From contig JAMXDE010000003.1 in the NCBI GenBank assembly GCA_026770025.1, positions 1,426,001 through 1,490,000 on the forward strand: a DNA stretch of 64,000 nucleotides, in the 5' to 3' direction. The stretch is from Craspedostauros australis. Taxonomy: Eukaryota > Bacillariophyta > Bacillariophyceae > Mastogloiales > Achnanthaceae. The notes below the pieces were generated by a model. The model saw only the letters and a program-made list of their open reading frames with translations. It made no database searches and was not told the origin of the DNA. The first letter of the stretch is position 1, and every line of letters starts with the position of its first letter. Shown here in pieces: positions 15,428-53,406 of this stretch. Position numbers and translations under genes: made by a program.

Positions 15428-18190
15428 ATGGCGCCCAACAATTTAGAAGAAACAAAGCAGGGTAGTCTCCGCGACCTGGACCCCTCCTTCGACGAGCCTC
15501 AGGATGAGCAGTCAATCTCAGCACAGATCATTCAGCATGTGCCAGCACCTATCACGCACACCACAGTTAACGTGCCCGCAGCCGTCCCCAAAACACTGAC
15601 CGATACAACGACGGTGGAAGACTTGAGGAGCTTCGTTGCCGCCGATGCTGAGGCCGCCACCGGCTCAGCGTCATCCGGGCCCACGATGTACTGGTCACCC
15701 TTCGATGAGCCATCCCAAGACTGCAAGGTCTCGCTGCCTCTCGTCTACTGCGATCAGACGGCATCCAACCGTCCCTTGAAGTCCATCGAGAGTTACTTGC
15801 AGAGCACATGTCTCCCGTACTACGGCAACACGCACACCATGACATCCATCACCGGGTCAACCTCAACAGCTCGCTGCGCCGAGGCGCGTAAGATTGTGGG
15901 AGAGGCCGTGAATGCCAACATCGAAGGCGGGAGCAGTGACGATCTCGTCCTGTTTGCGTAAGTTGTTGTGATTGTCTTGCATCTATCCACCTATCTATCC
16001 ATGCTGGAGTTGATTGTTCGCGTTACAACCCATTCTGGCTTGAAGCGGAAGGTGCAGGTCACGATCACAGGCTTGCCCAAGTGGAGGGCGAACATAAAAG
16101 AGAAGCAGAGCTTGTTGCAGATTGTTGACCATCTTCGTTGTGGCGCTCTCACACCTGTTGGATTCGTATCTGCGCACCATGCGTGCTTCAAATCATTCCC
16201 CTCCTTCCTTCATTCCTTCTCTTGCCGACCTTCATTGCGTACCTGCCCACTTGTATAACGCGATGTTACCATTCGCAGTGGAAGTGGGGCAACAGGTGCC
16301 GTGGATCTTTTGCTTGATTGCCTAGGATTGCACGAGTATAAGAAAGCTGCATCCTCTGGTGCGAATCAAATGCAGAACCACAAGCGCAAGCAGAAGAACA
16401 ACAGCAGCCGCAACAATGCAGCGATCCCGATGCAAGTTGGTGCAGACTGCCCGATTGTCTTCATCGGGCCATTCGAGCATCATTCCAACCTTCTTCCATG
16501 GCGTGAATCGGGTGCTCATATCATCATCGTACCCGGAGATCGGGGCCAGATCGATATGGTTGCATTGGAGCAGTTGCTGCAGGAGCATAAAAATCACAAG
16601 GCCCTCAAGATCGGTACCTTCACGGCAGCATCCAACATATCCGGAATCGTAACGGATACCAACGCCGTGACGGCCATGCTTCACAAGTACGGAGCTCTTT
16701 CGTTTTGGGATTACTCCACAGCCGCTCCGTACCTGCACATGAACATGAACCCGACCGATGACGAAAGGTTCGCATCCAGGCCTGCTGCTGTGGCCAAGGA
16801 TGCCATCTTCTTTGCCCCGCACAAGACGATCGGGGGCATCGGCACTCCAGGCGTTCTCATCTTGAAGAAAGCCCTGCTCCAGCCGAGCCGCGGGCCAAGA
16901 CGAACCGGAGGAGGTACTGTGTTTTACGTCACTCCCACTGGCCATCACTACCTCCCCAACCCCATCGAGAAGTACGAGGGTGGGACGCCAAACGTGGTCG
17001 GGATCTGGAGGGTGGGCCTTGCCATGCTCCTGAAACACCAAGTTGAGACCAAGTACGAGCAGCTCGCCGCTGAGCAGAACGCGGCTGGCGTCGTCAGTGC
17101 CGTCCCTGCCACCGTGGCGAAGTACGAGTTCGCCACGTTCAACAAGGTCGCCGCAGAACTTCGCAAGATCCCGAACGTGGTGCTCGTCAATGACAGCCTC
17201 GACCCGTCCGTGAAGCATCTTCCCATCTTCTCCTTCCTCATCAAGTGCGGGCCGCGCTTCCTGCACTACAACTTCGTGTCAGCTCTGCTGAACGATGTAT
17301 TTGGCATCCAGTCCCGTGGAGGTTGCCAGTGCGCAGGACCGTACGCCCAGGAGCTCCTCGGGATGCCAAACGGCCATGGCATGGGACGCATCTGCTGCCC
17401 TGTCGACACGGACGATCCAGTTGAAGCGGCCTTGATATCTGCCGACGGAGGGGCCGAGCTGCTGCGACCAGGATTCACAAGGCTGTCGCTGCCTTTCAAG
17501 GGATTGTCGTCGGTCCAGGTGGACTACGTCATCCAAGCCATCCAATGGGTTGCCCATCACGGATGGATGTTCCTGCCACAGTACCGATGCAATCTTCGAA
17601 CCGGCATCTGGCGACACGCCAGCGGCGATGTGATGCAAGGTGGCAACAGCTCGACCCACACCTTGGCTGACTTCACGATGGGAGCGTCCACGCAAACGCA
17701 GGCAAAGGGGTGCGATTGTTCGCCATCGTCACCACCATCCTGGTCCGATGTGCTCAAGCAAACCATGGGGATGGCAGACCGTCTTCTTGCCATGGCAAGG
17801 CGTGATTCCGTTCGGCTCTCGGAGTACGCGAAGCTCTCCAAGGGACTTGAGGTTGGCGACGGTGGCGCCAACCAAACGCTGGATCCGGCCTTCGAGCACT
17901 TGCGATGGTACGTCCATCCCGATGAAGTCATCGATTGCATCACCGAAGGGTTGGATGAAGTGCCGGGATCGGCGGACCCTTCCCATCTGCGTGGTGCGTT
18001 GAAACCAGCCGTGTGGCTTTACAGAGGCGCTGCTAGCCAGTCGACGCAGAAGGGGGAGGCTGTCGATGAGCCAATTCCATCCGTTGATCATTCGATTTCA
18101 TCCCAAGGCCCCGTCGCACACAAGCATGCTAGCATTGCCAGAAACCAGCCGGAGGAAGTGGAGGCCAAGTGCGCATGTTCCATCATGTGA
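15428..18190 (+). CDS. Class V aminotransferase / cysteine desulfurase-like protein with a C-terminal CaaX box
   Basis: Exons 15428-15957 and 16279-18190 join in frame (phase 2) to give 813 residues. The PLP-dependent fold is plain: YCDQTASNRPL near residue 101, AGSGATGAVD across the splice site, FIGPFEHHSNLLPWRE, then the Schiff-base Lys (about residue 359) in FFAPHKTIGG. GTPNVVGIWRVGLAM and a Cys-containing RGGCQCAGPYAQ follow. This matches NifS/CsdA-like and molybdenum-cofactor-sulfurase-like enzymes that remove sulfur or act on cysteine. The last 250 residues are an extra, poorly conserved extension. The protein ends CACSIM, a CaaX-type box (C-S-I-M) that would predict farnesylation and membrane attachment. 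The real substrate is unknown. Confidence 0.82.
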
Positions 18191-18394: not shown

Positions 18395-18600
18395 TATCAG
18401 CACAAAATCGAATAGTGCTAAGTACGTTACTCCCGTAGCCCCCACTATCTATAAATTTCACTTGTGTTCGGATCAGCAATCGCATCGCCTGTAGCTCAAC
18501 GGTAGAGCACCAGTAATTCTAACTGAGGTTCCGGGTTCGAATCCCGGCATGGTACTTTGCTTTTGCTCACCCCTTGTGATTTTTCGATAGTGCTCTAATA
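18395..18600 (+). repeat. 206-bp repeat, copy 1, containing a tRNA-like sequence
   Basis: The segment is base-for-base identical to 18852-19057 as far as I can read, 457 bp downstream. Its two ends are imperfect inverted repeats: TATCAGCACAAAATCGAA at the left against TATTAGAGCACTATCGAA (reverse complement of the right end), 13 of 18 matching. I see no flanking target duplication. The identity suggests a recent duplication or ongoing homogenisation. Confidence 0.85.
18485..18555 (+). tRNA. tRNA-like gene, anticodon ambiguous (TTC or TCT), copy 1
   Basis: A box (TAGCTCAACGG) and B box (GGTTCGAATCC) are perfect. The D stem GCTC/GAGC and T stem CCGGG/CCCGG pair fully. The anticodon stem CCAGT/ACTGA has one mismatch, and the acceptor stem TCGCCTG/CATGGTA pairs at only four of seven positions. 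With a 7-base loop AATTCTA the anticodon would be TTC (Glu), but position 33 would be A rather than the near-universal U. Shifting to respect U33 gives TCT (Arg) with a poor stem. A TTTT Pol III stop follows. It may be a decayed tRNA, a tRNA-derived short element or an edited tRNA. Confidence 0.55.
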
Positions 18601-18851: not shown

Positions 18852-19057
18852 TATCAGCACAAAATCGAATAGTGCTAAGTACGTTACTCCCGTAGCCCCC
18901 ACTATCTATAAATTTCACTTGTGTTCGGATCAGCAATCGCATCGCCTGTAGCTCAACGGTAGAGCACCAGTAATTCTAACTGAGGTTCCGGGTTCGAATC
19001 CCGGCATGGTACTTTGCTTTTGCTCACCCCTTGTGATTTTTCGATAGTGCTCTAATA
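18852..19057 (+). repeat. 206-bp repeat, copy 2, containing a tRNA-like sequence
   Basis: Identical to 18395-18600. Flanking bases differ from those of copy 1 on both sides, which fixes the repeat limits. Confidence 0.85.
18942..19012 (+). tRNA. tRNA-like gene, anticodon ambiguous (TTC or TCT), copy 2
   Basis: Same sequence and same reservations as the copy at 18485: intact A and B boxes and D and T stems, a weak acceptor stem and no U33 in the simplest fold. Confidence 0.55.
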
Positions 19058-45734: not shown

Positions 45735-46081
45735 AGGCCCCCACTGCCATGTCACATACGACATGGACGCTCGAGTGACGGAAACTGCACAGGACTGGTG
45801 CGTGACAGAATACTGCTTGGATTACGTGGAGTCAATAACCGTTCGCGCCATCTCTAGGGTATCTAATTTAGACATGTTCGCTTTCACTTCTCCGGAAGAG
45901 CGTCACATTTTGGTCATGAGTGTCACAACACATCATCTGTTTCTGTTTTGATGTTGCATGATGAGTTCTCTCCATGCTTCCCTCCATGCTATACTCGCTG
46001 CTCCTTCGATCCTTCTGTGTTCATCACACCTTCGCACACGCAGCTCCTCCACACGTTCGATTATTACTTACCATCGTTGCC

Positions 46082-47296
46082 ATGGTCAATCGTAATTGGA
46101 ATACTGTTCCCGAGCGGCAGGCATTGCAAGAAGCAATCGCTCGATTTGAGGCTGCCATCACTCAACTTGCAGACATCGACGTCCAACGTCTGGATTATGC
46201 AGGCGTCGTCATTTTGGTTCAGCACTATAGCAACATCGTCGCATTGGGCCGTCATGTGCTACAAATGCAGCAACTTTACCTCGTTCCATTGGGACCTCCT
46301 CCCATGTTCACCAACAGGAACATTGCCATCGCGGAACTGGACAACCGCGAAAGTGTTCGTCACTTTCGTTTCCGTGCGTGTGATCTCCAACGTCTGGCTG
46401 ACCGTCTCTGGCCCAAATTCCAGGCAGTGTCCGGTGAGGCAGATCCTGCATGCATTCAAGTGCGAAATCGATACACAGTATCGTACGAGATGGGATTGCT
46501 CGTCATGCTATTCCGTCTGGCACATCGCGGACGGCTGTGTGACATGGAACAAAGATTCAGCATGGACAGTGTCCGTATTTCCAGCATTGCCTCCACTTTC
46601 TACTCCTACTTCTATGACATTGGCAAACCGTACCTGAGCGACATCGGTTTGTTTCATACTCGATTCCCCGACTATGCGGAGAACAATCACCGTCTCACCC
46701 ACGGCTTGGTGGACGATGTGTTCGCTTATGTCGACGGCACGTTTTGGGAAACCTGTCGTCCCAAGGAGAATCAAGAGGACCTCTACTCAGGCTATAAACG
46801 CGGTCATGGGCTACACTATCAAGGAATTGTTGCACCAGATGGGTTGCTCATTCACTACTTTGGGCCGATTGCAGGTGCTCGCAGTGACGGGTACATGTTC
46901 CAGCAAAGCAAAATCGAACAGCGATTGGAGGCTCTCATGCCATTGGATGAGAACAATCCTCCATATCGTCTCTACGGTGATGCAGCATATCCTACTACAC
47001 CATACATATTCGCTGCATACAAGGACACTGTTCCAGGGTCCTCCGAGGCACAGTGCAACAAGGACATGGCGTCAGGACGCATCTGTGTTGAATGGGCATT
47101 CAAGGAGATCACGAAGAATTTTCCCTTGGTGAGCGTTCGCAACGCCAACAAAACACTGCTGAATCCTCTCACACTCATTCATTTTGTTGCTGCGTTCCTC
47201 GCCAACATTCATTGCACCATGAATGGCAATCAGCAGTCTGCACGGTACCAATCGCACAAGCTGACATTCGAAGAATACATCGACCTGATCCCATGA
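46082..47296 (+). CDS. PIF/Harbinger-type DDE transposase (DDE_Tnp_4)
   Basis: I start at the Met at 46082 (MVNRNWNTVPERQ), giving 404 residues; the frame is open to a Met at 45974, but the added part is hydrophobic and unlikely in a nuclear protein. A helical N-terminal part (to about residue 110) precedes a helix-turn-helix-like stretch (YEMGLLVMLFRLAHRGRLCD, MEQRFSMDSVRISSIASTF). The catalytic core then shows FAYVDGTFW (Asp218), GIVAPDGLIIH-like sequence, PIAGARSDGYMF, YRLYGDAAYP (Asp300) and RICVEWAFKEI (Glu337), the D-D-E triad and spacing of the family. The ORF has no internal stops, so the enzyme could be active. Confidence 0.88.
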   Translation: MVNRNWNTVPERQALQEAIARFEAAITQLADIDVQRLDYAGVVILVQHYSNIVALGRHVLQMQQLYLVPLGPPPMFTNRNIAIAELDNRESVRHFRFRACDLQRLADRLWPKFQAVSGEADPACIQVRNRYTVSYEMGLLVMLFRLAHRGRLCDMEQRFSMDSVRISSIASTFYSYFYDIGKPYLSDIGLFHTRFPDYAENNHRLTHGLVDDVFAYVDGTFWETCRPKENQEDLYSGYKRGHGLHYQGIVAPDGLLIHYFGPIAGARSDGYMFQQSKIEQRLEALMPLDENNPPYRLYGDAAYPTTPYIFAAYKDTVPGSSEAQCNKDMASGRICVEWAFKEITKNFPLVSVRNANKTLLNPLTLIHFVAAFLANIHCTMNGNQQSARYQSHKLTFEEYIDLIP

Positions 47297-49353: not shown

Positions 49354-49743
49354 GACGAATAGAGGGAAGCAGAATATGCGTCAGAAACGACACAGGTGGT
49401 GGTATGTGGTGGGAATGTTGATGTCTCGTGCAAGGTGTTGGTCGATGTGGAGCATCGAGGTGTAGTCATGAGGTGGGTTGTGACGGATGATTGTCTTGGA
49501 ATGAGAGAATCGAGATGAGAGAATCGAGCGATGGTGATGTGACAGTGATGTGACAGTGATGTGATGGCGATGTGATGGATGATGTTTTTCTCTTTGTTGT
49601 TCCAAAACGAACGCAAAAGTCTACGATGGCGGCCAACGTAGACGGATGTGGAGGACAAGAAGGACTAAACTAGAACGAAATAACACAACATGATTGGCCA
49701 AAGTCTATTATCCATGTGGAAGTGACACTTTTGCCGGGACTCT

Positions 49744-49800
49744 CTGAGTGGAAATGATTTCCATTTCTGCGCCAGAAATGGAAATCAATTCCACTGAGCG
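49744..49800. repeat. Subterminal near-perfect palindrome inside the transposon
   Basis: The arms CTGAGTGGAAATGATTTCC and its inverted partner differ at only one or two bases around a CGCC centre. The arm tip CTGAGTGGAA is the same word as the inner end of the terminal repeats, so this may be an extra transposase or Myb-partner binding site. Confidence 0.7.
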
Positions 49801-49867
49801 AGGGGGTGATTTCTTGCCACCCCCGGATAAATGTCTCTATCAGGTTATGACTCCCTCGCGGGAATGG

Positions 49868-49891: not shown

Positions 49892-50038
49892 AATCTGCAC
49901 ATCACCAAGGAACATTCATCGTCATCATCATGGAAGCAGAGACCATCAGCTGGTGATACTCACAATTATCACTCCAATCACAATACTACGTTCACGCCCA
50001 AATACACGTCAATTTCAGGACAGTGTATTGCATCCACC

Positions 50039-51061
50039 ATGGCCAGCTCGTGTTCCCGACGGGTCTTTCCCGAGGCGGTCGTAGAATCGGTGCAAAGGCA
50101 GTTGGAACAGCGAGCAACCGCTGCGGCTCCATCTTCACGTATGCTGCTGGCCCCCACCGTCAACCCAACTGCCTTGAATGATGCGGCGGTACGTATGTAC
50201 GAGTACATATGGATAGCGCAAGTGCGCACTCATTGGTTTGCATTGCATGGACTGTCATTGTCGTCCTGCACCCTCACAATTCTCCGTTCCATTGCGTTGC
50301 ATTGCATCCTTCTATTCATTCCGGTACCAAACAGATGGTCCAATTGAGAATCACGAAGGACTCCGTTTCTGAAATTGATGTGTTGCGAAGTCGCGAGATG
50401 ATCCGAGAACAGACTGGGAAATACGGGAGTAAGTGGACGTCGACCCGCAGTTTGCCACAGTATGCTGTGTTGCGTTATGCTGCGCTGTGTTGCGTCTCAA
50501 CGAAAGCACAACTAACGCTGCGTAACTCGGCTCTGCATTTTCTGCGCTGCGCTGCGCAACGCACAATCTCTCTCTCTAGGCATTTGCTTCGTCGTTCGCC
50601 GACCAGGATGATTCTTGTGTCGGGAGCACGCACTTACCTTGAGCGCGCTTGCTGCCGACACAAATTCATTGGAGGGTTTCGGACTGTTCGGTGTTGTCAA
50701 GGAGACGGGCATCGACGATGAAGGTCTCATGGAGTTCTCCCAGAAGTATTTTCTTGACGCGCCGCTCTTTTGCGATAAATCGTTCGCATTCTATCAGGCG
50801 CTGGGTGATCGACGTGCCACAGACTTGCCGGCACTGTGGAGCATGATGACGGGCGTCTTCAGTTGGATAAGTCGGATTCAGGAGAAGAATATCAGCGGGA
50901 ATACGAAAGGAGAAGGTTTACTGAAAGGCGGTTTGATACTGTTCGATACGAAAGGCAAGCCCAGGTACTCCTACCAAGAAGAGACTGGTGAAGACTTGCC
51001 GGTGGCAGATATCGTGGCTGCATTGGAAGTGCTGAAAATTGGGGTGGACGCTGATAAATAG
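50039..51061 (+). CDS. Selenoprotein U (peroxiredoxin-like 2 family), UGA read as selenocysteine
   Basis: Exons 50039-50188, 50335-50428 and 50580-51061 join in frame to 241 residues provided the UGA at 50609-50611 is decoded. Around it the sequence reads ICFVVRRPG-UGA-FLCREHALTLSAL. This is the PRXL2/FAM213 active site, RRPG(C/U)FLCREE, so Sec92 forms a UxxC redox pair with Cys95. The downstream part continues the thioredoxin-like fold: GVVKETGIDDEGLMEF, APLFCDKSFAFYQALGD, KGGLILFDTKG and ETGEDLPVADIVAAL. SelU with Sec is known in fish, birds and some protists. The protein is probably a thiol/selenol peroxidase or redox regulator. Translating it with an ordinary stop would lose everything after residue 91. 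Confidence 0.85.
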
Positions 51062-51462
51062 AAAGAAGAGGGAAAGAGAAAGGCTGAGCATTCGCACGAC
51101 TGCGTATGATATTGCAGAGCGATTGTCAAGACGAGCAACCAAGTGAACTCCTCTCAAGCGACGCCTCCACGGAACGATTATCTGTCTGATGCCGCAGTTG
51201 TAGCGAGGCACAGAACATCACAAGCAATCCCAAAGAACGCAGCAAGACAAAGAAATGCAGAAAACGCAATGGTATGAACTGATGGAATGACTGAATCGAG
51301 GATGTCAGATTCACGAAAGAATCAATTACGCCATGCGGTTTCGTCACATCTCTCGTTAGAGTGCTGTCGTTACTACTATACCTTAATGTATTATGATTCA
51401 AGAGCATGTTAATACAAGCACTCCATTGCGTCCTATTTCCAACCGAAAAGAACGGTGTAGTT
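51062..51462. other. Convergent intergenic region, 3' region of SelU
   Basis: It should hold the SelU 3' UTR, and therefore its SECIS, plus the trailer of the minus-strand pseudouridine synthase gene. No other gene is seen. Confidence 0.5.
51099..51198 (+). promoter_or_regulatory. Candidate SECIS element of the SelU mRNA
   Basis: It starts 38 bp after the stop codon. ACTGCG (51099) pairs with CGCAGT (51193). Next come ATGA (51106) and TGAT (51187), the two strands of the SECIS quartet. A second helix of CAGA/TCTG and GATTGT/ACGATT follows, topped by a loop that opens CAAG with an unpaired AA at 51128. The order fits a SECIS, but the 5' spacing from ATGA to AA (18 nt) is longer than usual and helix II has internal mismatches, so this is only a candidate. 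Confidence 0.4.
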
Positions 51463-52842
51463 TCAAAAAGGTGGATCGACTTGAAAGATCATGGGTGCGC
51501 CTGAGATGGGATGATTGATGCACAGCCTGTGCGCATGCAAACACAAGGGAATGTCCAAATCCTCCGACCTGTAGATCTCATCACCCAAGATTGGATATCC
51601 CAACACTTGCGCGCAATGCACTCGCAGTTGGTGCGTCCGTCCCGTCCATGGTTTCAGTTCGATGCGCGTCATGGGATCGTTGCCGCTGGTGTGCCGTCGC
51701 AATACGCGGTACGTGGTCTGGCTGGTCTTTTTGGATTCTCGAAAGAACTTGTGATCCGGCGAGAATGCTGGCGTTTCCTTGTCCAAGTCGGCCGTCGCGA
51801 CGTTGTAGACGCGCATGTAGGGTGGATTGTTGGGATCGCGTTCCATCGTGACATCGATCTCGCCTTCCGCGTATCGATCGTCCAAGTGTCCTGGAAGGAG
51901 CGCGTGATAGATCTTGATGACGTTCCGCTGTTTGAAATCCAAGTGCAGTTGGCACAAGGCCTGGCGCGTCAGCGCGTAGACGATGATGCCGCTCGTCGCC
52001 ATATCCAACCGATGCACGATCATCTGATCAACGGAATCCAGATCGGTGGGTTGCAGAGCGTCGTACAGCAGGTTCGCCAAGGAAGGATTGCGCCGTGGGC
52101 CAGGGACGCTGAGGATGCCGCTAGGTTTGTTAGTGACGCAGATGTGCTCGTCGCAGTACAGAATCTCCATCAGATTTGGATCCAGTGGTTGGCTCGCGCG
52201 ATGCTCGGCACGTATCTTCTGGATGAGCTGCCTCTGCTGTCGTTCGGAGAGTTCGGAATATCGTTTGAGGAGTTCGTGCGACGATTTGGAGAGATTCATG
52301 GATTGGAGCTCTTCTATGCTGATGGAACTGAGGTCGACATCATTGTCGTTGGGGGAGGCGGGTTTGCGACCCGCAGGAAGGTTGGTTTTGTAGTTCGGCG
52401 CCTGCTTCACGCTCTTCGGAGCAGAGAAGATTTGCATCGGCAGAGCAGAACCGCTCCATTCAACGTGCTTGTATTGGATGCGTCGATTCGGAATGGTGTA
52501 GTCCTGGCATTTGCTCGCGAGAATTTCGTGTTTGTCGTCAATGCGAGACGAGGTGGGAGCACGCAGATCGCATTCAGCGCTGGTGTCCGCAGATGAGTCT
52601 GGGTAGTCACGCTGGTGCTGATGATGTATTTGGTTTTGCCGCTGCTGTTCAATGATGGACGGCGTTGGTGTCACTGCTCCTGTGGTGCTGAGTGCCTCAC
52701 AAAAGAGCGCGGTGCGTCCATCACGAAATGATGGCAGTGTCAATAGCGACAGTAGATGCAATGTCGACGACAGGAGCACCAATGCCGACAGAGTTGGCAT
52801 AGAAGGTCGCTTCATTTTTCTTCGAAAGCAAAACGCTCTCAT
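51463..52842 (-). CDS. RluA-family RNA pseudouridine synthase with N-terminal targeting region
   Basis: The protein is 459 residues in one exon. The catalytic domain (about residues 225-459) has EILYCDEHICVTNKPSGILSVPG, then VDQMIVHRLDMATSGIIVYAL with the catalytic Asp in HRLD, then a KIYHALLPG strand, and RIELKPWTGRTHQLRVHCAQVLGYPILGDEIY, the full RluA/RsuA signature. It isomerises uridines in rRNA, tRNA or mRNA. The N-terminus has a basic start and a long hydrophobic segment (LSALVLLSSTLHLLSLL), so it enters the secretory route, and in this lineage that usually means a plastid protein; the expected Phe motif is not clear. A second Met at 52815 may be the start. No S4 domain is seen. Confidence 0.85.
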   Translation of the reverse strand: MRAFCFRRKMKRPSMPTLSALVLLSSTLHLLSLLTLPSFRDGRTALFCEALSTTGAVTPTPSIIEQQRQNQIHHQHQRDYPDSSADTSAECDLRAPTSSRIDDKHEILASKCQDYTIPNRRIQYKHVEWSGSALPMQIFSAPKSVKQAPNYKTNLPAGRKPASPNDNDVDLSSISIEELQSMNLSKSSHELLKRYSELSERQQRQLIQKIRAEHRASQPLDPNLMEILYCDEHICVTNKPSGILSVPGPRRNPSLANLLYDALQPTDLDSVDQMIVHRLDMATSGIIVYALTRQALCQLHLDFKQRNVIKIYHALLPGHLDDRYAEGEIDVTMERDPNNPPYMRVYNVATADLDKETPAFSPDHKFFRESKKTSQTTYRVLRRHTSGNDPMTRIELKPWTGRTHQLRVHCAQVLGYPILGDEIYRSEDLDIPLCLHAHRLCINHPISGAPMIFQVDPPF

Positions 52843-53406
52843 CTCTTGTCATTCTTCCTTCCTTCCCTCGCGTTTCCTTCTGACAGCGTGTCAGAGTGGT
52901 CGATAGAGACTTCGAGGATGTTGGATTGCTAGACGCGATGGACGCGATGGACGCGATGGATGAGTGGGTGAGTGGATGAACCCACGGAAGTGCACTTTGT
53001 TTGTCGCAAACTGTTGGTGATGGGTCGGCAGCGACCACCAACACAGAGACACTTTGGGATCAGTCAGTCGTGGTTACCTACGTTCATTCTTGTGCGTCCG
53101 TCGTCAGTGTTTTCCCGCCATCTCCCACCAACCAAACTCATCATGGGTGCCTCGCAGTCGGCAAGTGCGCGTGTTTTCGAATGGTGTTTGCTTTTGTCTT
53201 CCTTGGCACACCGCAAGTGCTGGGACATCACATGATCCCATCGTCAGCCATCGCCATCACATCATCAACTTCATCATCAACTTCATCATCGTTTTCTTTG
53301 CCTTTCGTGAACAATTTCGAACGCAGATATAATATTATACAGCATTGAGATTCGCTCCCAGTCCACCACTTTAATATAATTGGACAGATTACCGCAACAC
53401 TTCACC
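52843..53406. other. Divergent intergenic region
   Basis: Possible bidirectional promoter. It contains GACGCGATG x3 (52932-52958), runs of ATCATCAACTTC near 53260-53290, and an AT-rich TATAATATTATAC stretch 70 bp before the next start. Confidence 0.4.
52932..52958. repeat. GACGCGATG x3 tandem repeat
   Basis: Three perfect 9-bp units. Confidence 0.8.

Follow-up and report, generated by a model that had tools for sequence, protein, structure and literature searches.

An in-frame UGA at the catalytic position of a SelU gene, probably read as selenocysteine and followed by a stable hairpin

We describe here a gene of the PRXL2/SelU family in which an in-frame UGA takes the place of the catalytic cysteine of its relatives and is followed directly by an unusually stable hairpin, and for these two reasons the stop is probably read as selenocysteine (Sec). 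The gene lies in a 64,000-nucleotide stretch of DNA, which we call the window, and it is most likely a Sec-encoding SelU whose UGA codon 92 stands for Sec, whose hairpin resembles a selenocysteine redefinition element (SRE), and whose SECIS element is either divergent or situated outside the examined stretch.

Sec forms of SelU are already established, so our main claim adds one gene to a known family. Two such genes are given for the diatom T. pseudonana and one for each of two Ostreococcus species (PMC2375036), over half of 36 algal genomes have a Sec-SELENOU (PMC7539508), Sec forms of SelU1-3 occur in invertebrates (PMC3473315), and all Sec forms of a vertebrate survey fall in SelU1 (PMC3316567). 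Like the SELENOU/SelU/PRXL2 proteins of diatoms, green algae, fish and invertebrates, our gene belongs to the PF13911 family and carries UGA at the catalytic residue; unlike them it has no confident SECIS and has a hairpin after the UGA. It is this hairpin, and the combination of a strong local element with a missing or poor SECIS, that is less ordinary here.

Gene structure and protein family

Three exons on the forward strand, joined through canonical GT-AG introns, form a frame of 241 codons from ATG 50039, and the lone stop within it is a TGA at codon 92. The features of the locus are as follows.

50039 to 50188, + strand: SelU exon 1, with the frame, the likelier start ATG 50039 and a GTACGT donor
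50335 to 50428, + strand: SelU exon 2, with an ACAG acceptor and a GTAAGT donor
50580 to 51064, + strand: SelU exon 3, with the UGA, the U-x-x-C motif, the Pfam AhpC-TSA_2 match and the TAG stop at 51062-51064
50609 to 50611, + strand: in-frame TGA, the predicted Sec codon (residue 92), matching in alignment the first Cys of the RRFGCVVC motif of PDB 9us9
50615 to 50663, + strand: stem-loop of 20 pairs beginning 3 nt after the TGA, a candidate SRE-like recoding element
51260 to 51340, + strand: weak SECIS-like candidate in the 3' flank, with CTGA at 51279-51282 and GA at 51315-51316
51463 to 52848, - strand: ORF of an RluA-family pseudouridine synthase, convergent with SelU

An earlier note on this DNA had proposed that splicing at 50428/50580 brings RRPG, the TGA at 50609 and FLCRE into one frame with a single stop at residue 92, and both proposals are borne out. 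Intron 1 (50189-50334) runs from GTACGT to ACAG; the boundaries of intron 2 are equally canonical (50428|50429 GTAAGT, CTCTCTAG|50580) and the join is in frame, giving the peptide SICFVVRRPG-UGA-FLCREHAL. Across the 241 codons and two introns there is no frameshift or second lesion. Another ATG lies upstream at 49847 in frame with exon 1, and ATG 50039 is the likelier start because the codon usage of the extension looks non-coding (-0.137 bits/codon). The window contains a single instance of the pattern RRPG-TGA-x-L-C-R-(D/E), and 100 shuffles contain none.

The motif RRPG(C/U)FLCRE is what we take to be the signature of SelU1/PRXL2A, and the C/U-x-x-C redox motif after RRPG is presumably a feature of the PRXL2/SelU family. 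The membership in this family that had been claimed from the motif is supported by Pfam: the joined protein matches PF13911 (AhpC-TSA_2, a thioredoxin-like domain) with an E value of 7.9e-14 and 52.4 bits, the cut-off being 27. All of the match falls after the TGA, beginning 13 residues beyond it, and the downstream part alone gives 2.4e-14. NCBIfam returned only a weak SelL-related match (0.0046), far below cut-off. Among solved structures two matches were found at E up to 1, both to prostamide/prostaglandin F synthase (9us9, 2.6e-07; 9usa, 4.6e-06). In the alignment with 9us9 the TGA residue falls on the first cysteine of the CxxC (RRPG-U-F-L-C versus RRFG-C-V-V-C), which agrees with the catalytic position assigned to it in the earlier note. 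The synthase thus shares with our protein a detectable homology and a CxxC aligned with its U-x-x-C; it differs in being a Cys form, and the similarity is distant only. In 9usa both motif cysteines are Ser, which probably reflects a designed catalytic mutant. This enzyme is called SelU3 in PMC3473315. A single-sequence AlphaFold2 model of exon 3 was unusable (mean pLDDT 36).

Codon usage is coding-like downstream of the TGA and roughly neutral upstream of it, and in both parts it exceeds that of the introns. With scores built from the codon statistics of 11 window ORFs, the part after the TGA reaches +0.085 bits/codon in the SelU frame and only -0.32 and -0.36 when read in the alternative frames; the exons before the TGA give +0.022, which is about neutral (exon 1 alone -0.015), and the introns and the 3' flank lie between -0.17 and -0.35 in all three frames. 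A general reassignment of UGA was rejected: TGA is the terminal codon in 6 of the 12 Pfam-matched window ORFs checked, some of which may be exon ends in stop-to-stop frames and not proven gene ends, and therefore UGA is not a general sense codon here.

The hairpin behind the UGA

An inverted-repeat search located a pair of 17-nt arms (50615-50631 and 50647-50663) with 88% complementarity, and the stem that they form consists of 9 uninterrupted pairs followed by 4, 3 and 4 pairs. The hairpin has an energy of -28.5 kcal/mol (z -5.84), and none of 200 dinucleotide shuffles was as stable. For a coding segment such as this one, synonymous recoding makes a fairer null model, and under it the -28.9 observed for a 64-nt window was reached by 2 of 2000 within-gene synonymous permutations (z -3.99) and, likewise, by 2 of 2000 draws from the window codon usage (z -3.77). 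An equally stable 64-nt window follows 4 of the 2291 TGA triplets on both strands, the SelU TGA counted in; the same stability is found in 4 of 1785 overlapping windows in ten other ORFs and in 18 of 6394 along the forward strand. A wobble position is involved in 11 of the 20 pairs. In three wider contexts, two of them with intron sequence, the mean pair probability is 0.95-0.96 and that of the lowest single pair 0.65-0.68. Since the window length was picked after the repeat had been seen, and since simple 9-bp helices are frequent within 0-9 nt downstream of a TGA (135/2291), we consider the hairpin as moderate evidence, with p about 0.002.

The hairpin, which the earlier note had not mentioned and which adds to its Sec reading, is placed where an SRE would be, and its SRE role is putative. 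The survey by Howard et al. 2005 is said to be one of SRE-type elements. It may include one in SelU; none of the titles and abstract openings returned by our literature searches reports such an element for SelU. SREs sit downstream of UGA-Sec codons, and the one in SELENON matters for inhibiting termination and for stimulating Sec insertion (PMC8704476). Like the SREs of SELENON and SELENOT described there, the structure reported here is an RNA fold just 3' of the codon; it differs from them in belonging to another gene and in beginning 3 nt after the UGA.

Search for a SECIS element

The Sec reading of the earlier note holds up with respect to the family, to the TGA at the first cysteine and to the intact frame on both sides, and it falls short with respect to the SECIS: neither Rfam nor our home-made scans gave a convincing element. 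Rfam contained no SECIS match at the gathering threshold in the whole window, and none at E up to 10 in 49900-52500 (2601 bases), 51062-51480 (419 bases) or 51255-51350 (96 bases); at that E value it gave unrelated families alone, each below its gathering score.

PMC2375036 gives the SECISearch spacing as NTGA, 10-13 nt, AA or CC, 15-39 nt and GA, and quotes an energy threshold of -12.6. Our home-made scan took this spacing, allowed 9 nt as well and applied stem rules of our own; it yields 47 candidates per 128 kb of strand, and two of them, 51279 and 52728, lie between the TGA and 54000. Candidate 51279 has NTGA-AA-GA spacings of 11 and 19 nt. Its helix I is interrupted and counts 11 pairs, its upper stem has 8 bp (-4.4), and an AA sits in its 12-nt apical loop. 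Its total of -12.0 is just short of -12.6 and becomes -15.7 with longer flanks. Its quartet is CUGA, with C where A or G precedes UGA. The segment 51260-51345 (86 nt) is somewhat more stable than its shuffled versions (z -1.95; only 2 of 200 match it), and the fold of lowest energy around the site differs from the SECIS-like one and beats it by 6.4 kcal/mol. Chance alone should give about 0.15 such candidates per 0.4 kb, and we treat this one, which is at about chance level, as a lead and not as a finding. Taken as a whole, the 3' flank shows no excess of structure (z +1.22, with 88 of 100 shuffles as stable). The first home-made scan gave no candidate in 51063-52062, and a differently anchored one gave none from the SelU stop to 51462.

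Several other candidates were rejected. The one at 51143 was seen in one scan only and was absent from three others. Those at 51511, 51515, 51751, 51848, 51983 and 52728 are antisense to the pseudouridine synthase ORF; the candidates of this region occur at background frequency and most have long unpaired or branched parts. The stops of the two convergent genes are separated by 398 nt, and therefore their 3'UTRs may overlap. Candidates 50730 and 51024 have NGGA instead of NTGA, begin in the coding region and appear only in the wide scan, which is unselective (400 candidates per 128 kb of strand). The candidate that ranked first in the window in the spacing-based scan, 49744, belongs to a near-perfect hairpin upstream of the gene and is not a SECIS core because its UGA is Watson-Crick paired. 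This hairpin (49740-49802; 30-nt arms, 90% complementary, 3-nt loop) stands about 240 nt before the likely SelU start, and no second copy of it was found in the window.

Search for relatives

Relatives were sought in non-eukaryotic collections, with a single-sequence query that reaches close relatives only. A peptide-pattern search returned 3 stretches in viral contigs and 68 in prokaryote genomes, none of which was confirmed by tblastn. The degenerate RRPG-TGA-xLCR pattern was present in 3 stretches of viral contigs and 44 of prokaryote contigs; when the exon 3 protein was compared with all 47 by tblastn, the best E value was 1.7 over 10 aligned residues, so these stretches look like chance occurrences, and the three viral ones, translated around the motif, contain several further stops. 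As the motif recurs by chance, the evidence is provided by the surrounding gene and not by the motif alone. A tblastn search of phages and plasmids gave no match.

Proposed mechanism and alternative explanations

We propose that the product of the gene would be selenoprotein U, a PRXL2/FAM213-like redox protein of presumed thioredoxin fold with the catalytic motif U-x-x-C, and that the ribosome would read UGA codon 92 as Sec. The stem-loop 3 nt past the UGA may disfavour termination in an SRE-like manner, and Sec would be delivered through a SECIS in the 3'UTR, which might correspond to the weak candidate near 51279 or lie beyond the examined stretch; divergent or unrecognised as it may be, this SECIS would recruit the Sec machinery. 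Against a Sec-encoding SelU stand the lack of an Rfam SECIS, the weakness of candidate 51279, the near-neutral codon usage upstream and the fact that no relative, with or without the TGA, was found in the collections searched.

It is unlikely, in our estimation, that the UGA is recoded mainly by the hairpin with no canonical SECIS, be it by a readthrough of the SPS1-UGA kind, then in a second selenoprotein family, or by a divergent SECIS combined with a strong SRE. That a UGA formerly used for Sec is now read, with the help of the hairpin and with no SECIS, by a near-cognate tRNA (Cys, Trp or Arg) we consider very improbable, even if such readthrough would fit both the strong hairpin at the UGA and the lack of a convincing SECIS. 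There is precedent for it in PMC4561486: the insect SPS1-UGA gene combines a strong local structure (HRE) with the lack of a SECIS, its translation being deduced there, and the SRE of SEPN1 still yields Sec-independent readthrough when there is no SECIS. The same text gives Arg at the SPS1 site in other lineages, so the SPS1-UGA residue need not be redox, while Trp or Arg at our catalytic residue 92 should abolish the redox motif. The likeness to the HRE is limited to a strong structure at the UGA and no SECIS, because, according to that source, the HRE forms a clover of three stems that overlaps the UGA and is accompanied by the hexanucleotide GGG-UG(C/U), whereas in SelU a simple hairpin stands behind the UGA, the hexanucleotide is absent and UUCUUG follows the UGA. 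The absence of a SECIS is, moreover, only as good as the home-made scans and Rfam.

The same absence would fit a pseudogene or a dying allele, in which a Cys codon TGC or TGT of a gene otherwise coding for a Cys-form PRXL2 protein has become TGA by mutation or sequencing error, or a former Sec gene has lost its SECIS; a single base change is enough for the former, the TGA is known from a single assembly, and in the invertebrate survey PMC3473315 a missing SECIS is taken as a sign of an inactive copy. The frame that is otherwise free of lesions over its codons and introns, the coding-like codon usage after the TGA and a stable hairpin just behind it, unexpected for a random lesion, make such decay quite improbable. 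The UGA could hardly be a true terminator with a separate exon 3 protein, devoid of the active site, starting downstream: the Pfam match is indeed entirely downstream of the TGA and an in-frame ATG is present at 50729, but this ATG is about 27 residues inside the match, so a protein started there would lack part of the domain, and neither RRPG-x-FLC nor the frame of exons 1 and 2 would serve any use, although both are intact.

If the Sec-encoding SelU is what we have, it provides one more gene in a family with a patchy Sec/Cys distribution, and automatic annotation may mis-start a gene of this kind. Should the hairpin be an SRE, SelU, probably in an alga or another protist, gains such an element; should no SECIS exist, the gene becomes a test case for UGA recoding by local structure alone.

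Context of the window

The window is eukaryotic in character, with spliceosomal-type introns and a GC content of 52-57% per 4-kb block, and its ORFs include those of an EMP70 protein, a polynucleotide phosphorylase, a WD40 protein and a DDE transposase. A class-V aminotransferase ORF occupies 16259-18190; its best NCBIfam match is a SufS-type cysteine desulfurase (2.1e-20), and it has a weak match to the selenocysteine lyase SclA (2.4e-07), both far below cut-off. A direct repeat of 206 bp is present in two identical copies (18395-18600 and 18852-19057), each with a tRNA-like RF00005 match of 35.4 bits that was rejected by ARAGORN, and it resembles a tRNA-derived SINE or the outcome of a recent duplication. 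The transposase ORF, of the DDE_Tnp_4 type, lies at 45965-47296 and is presumably Harbinger-like.
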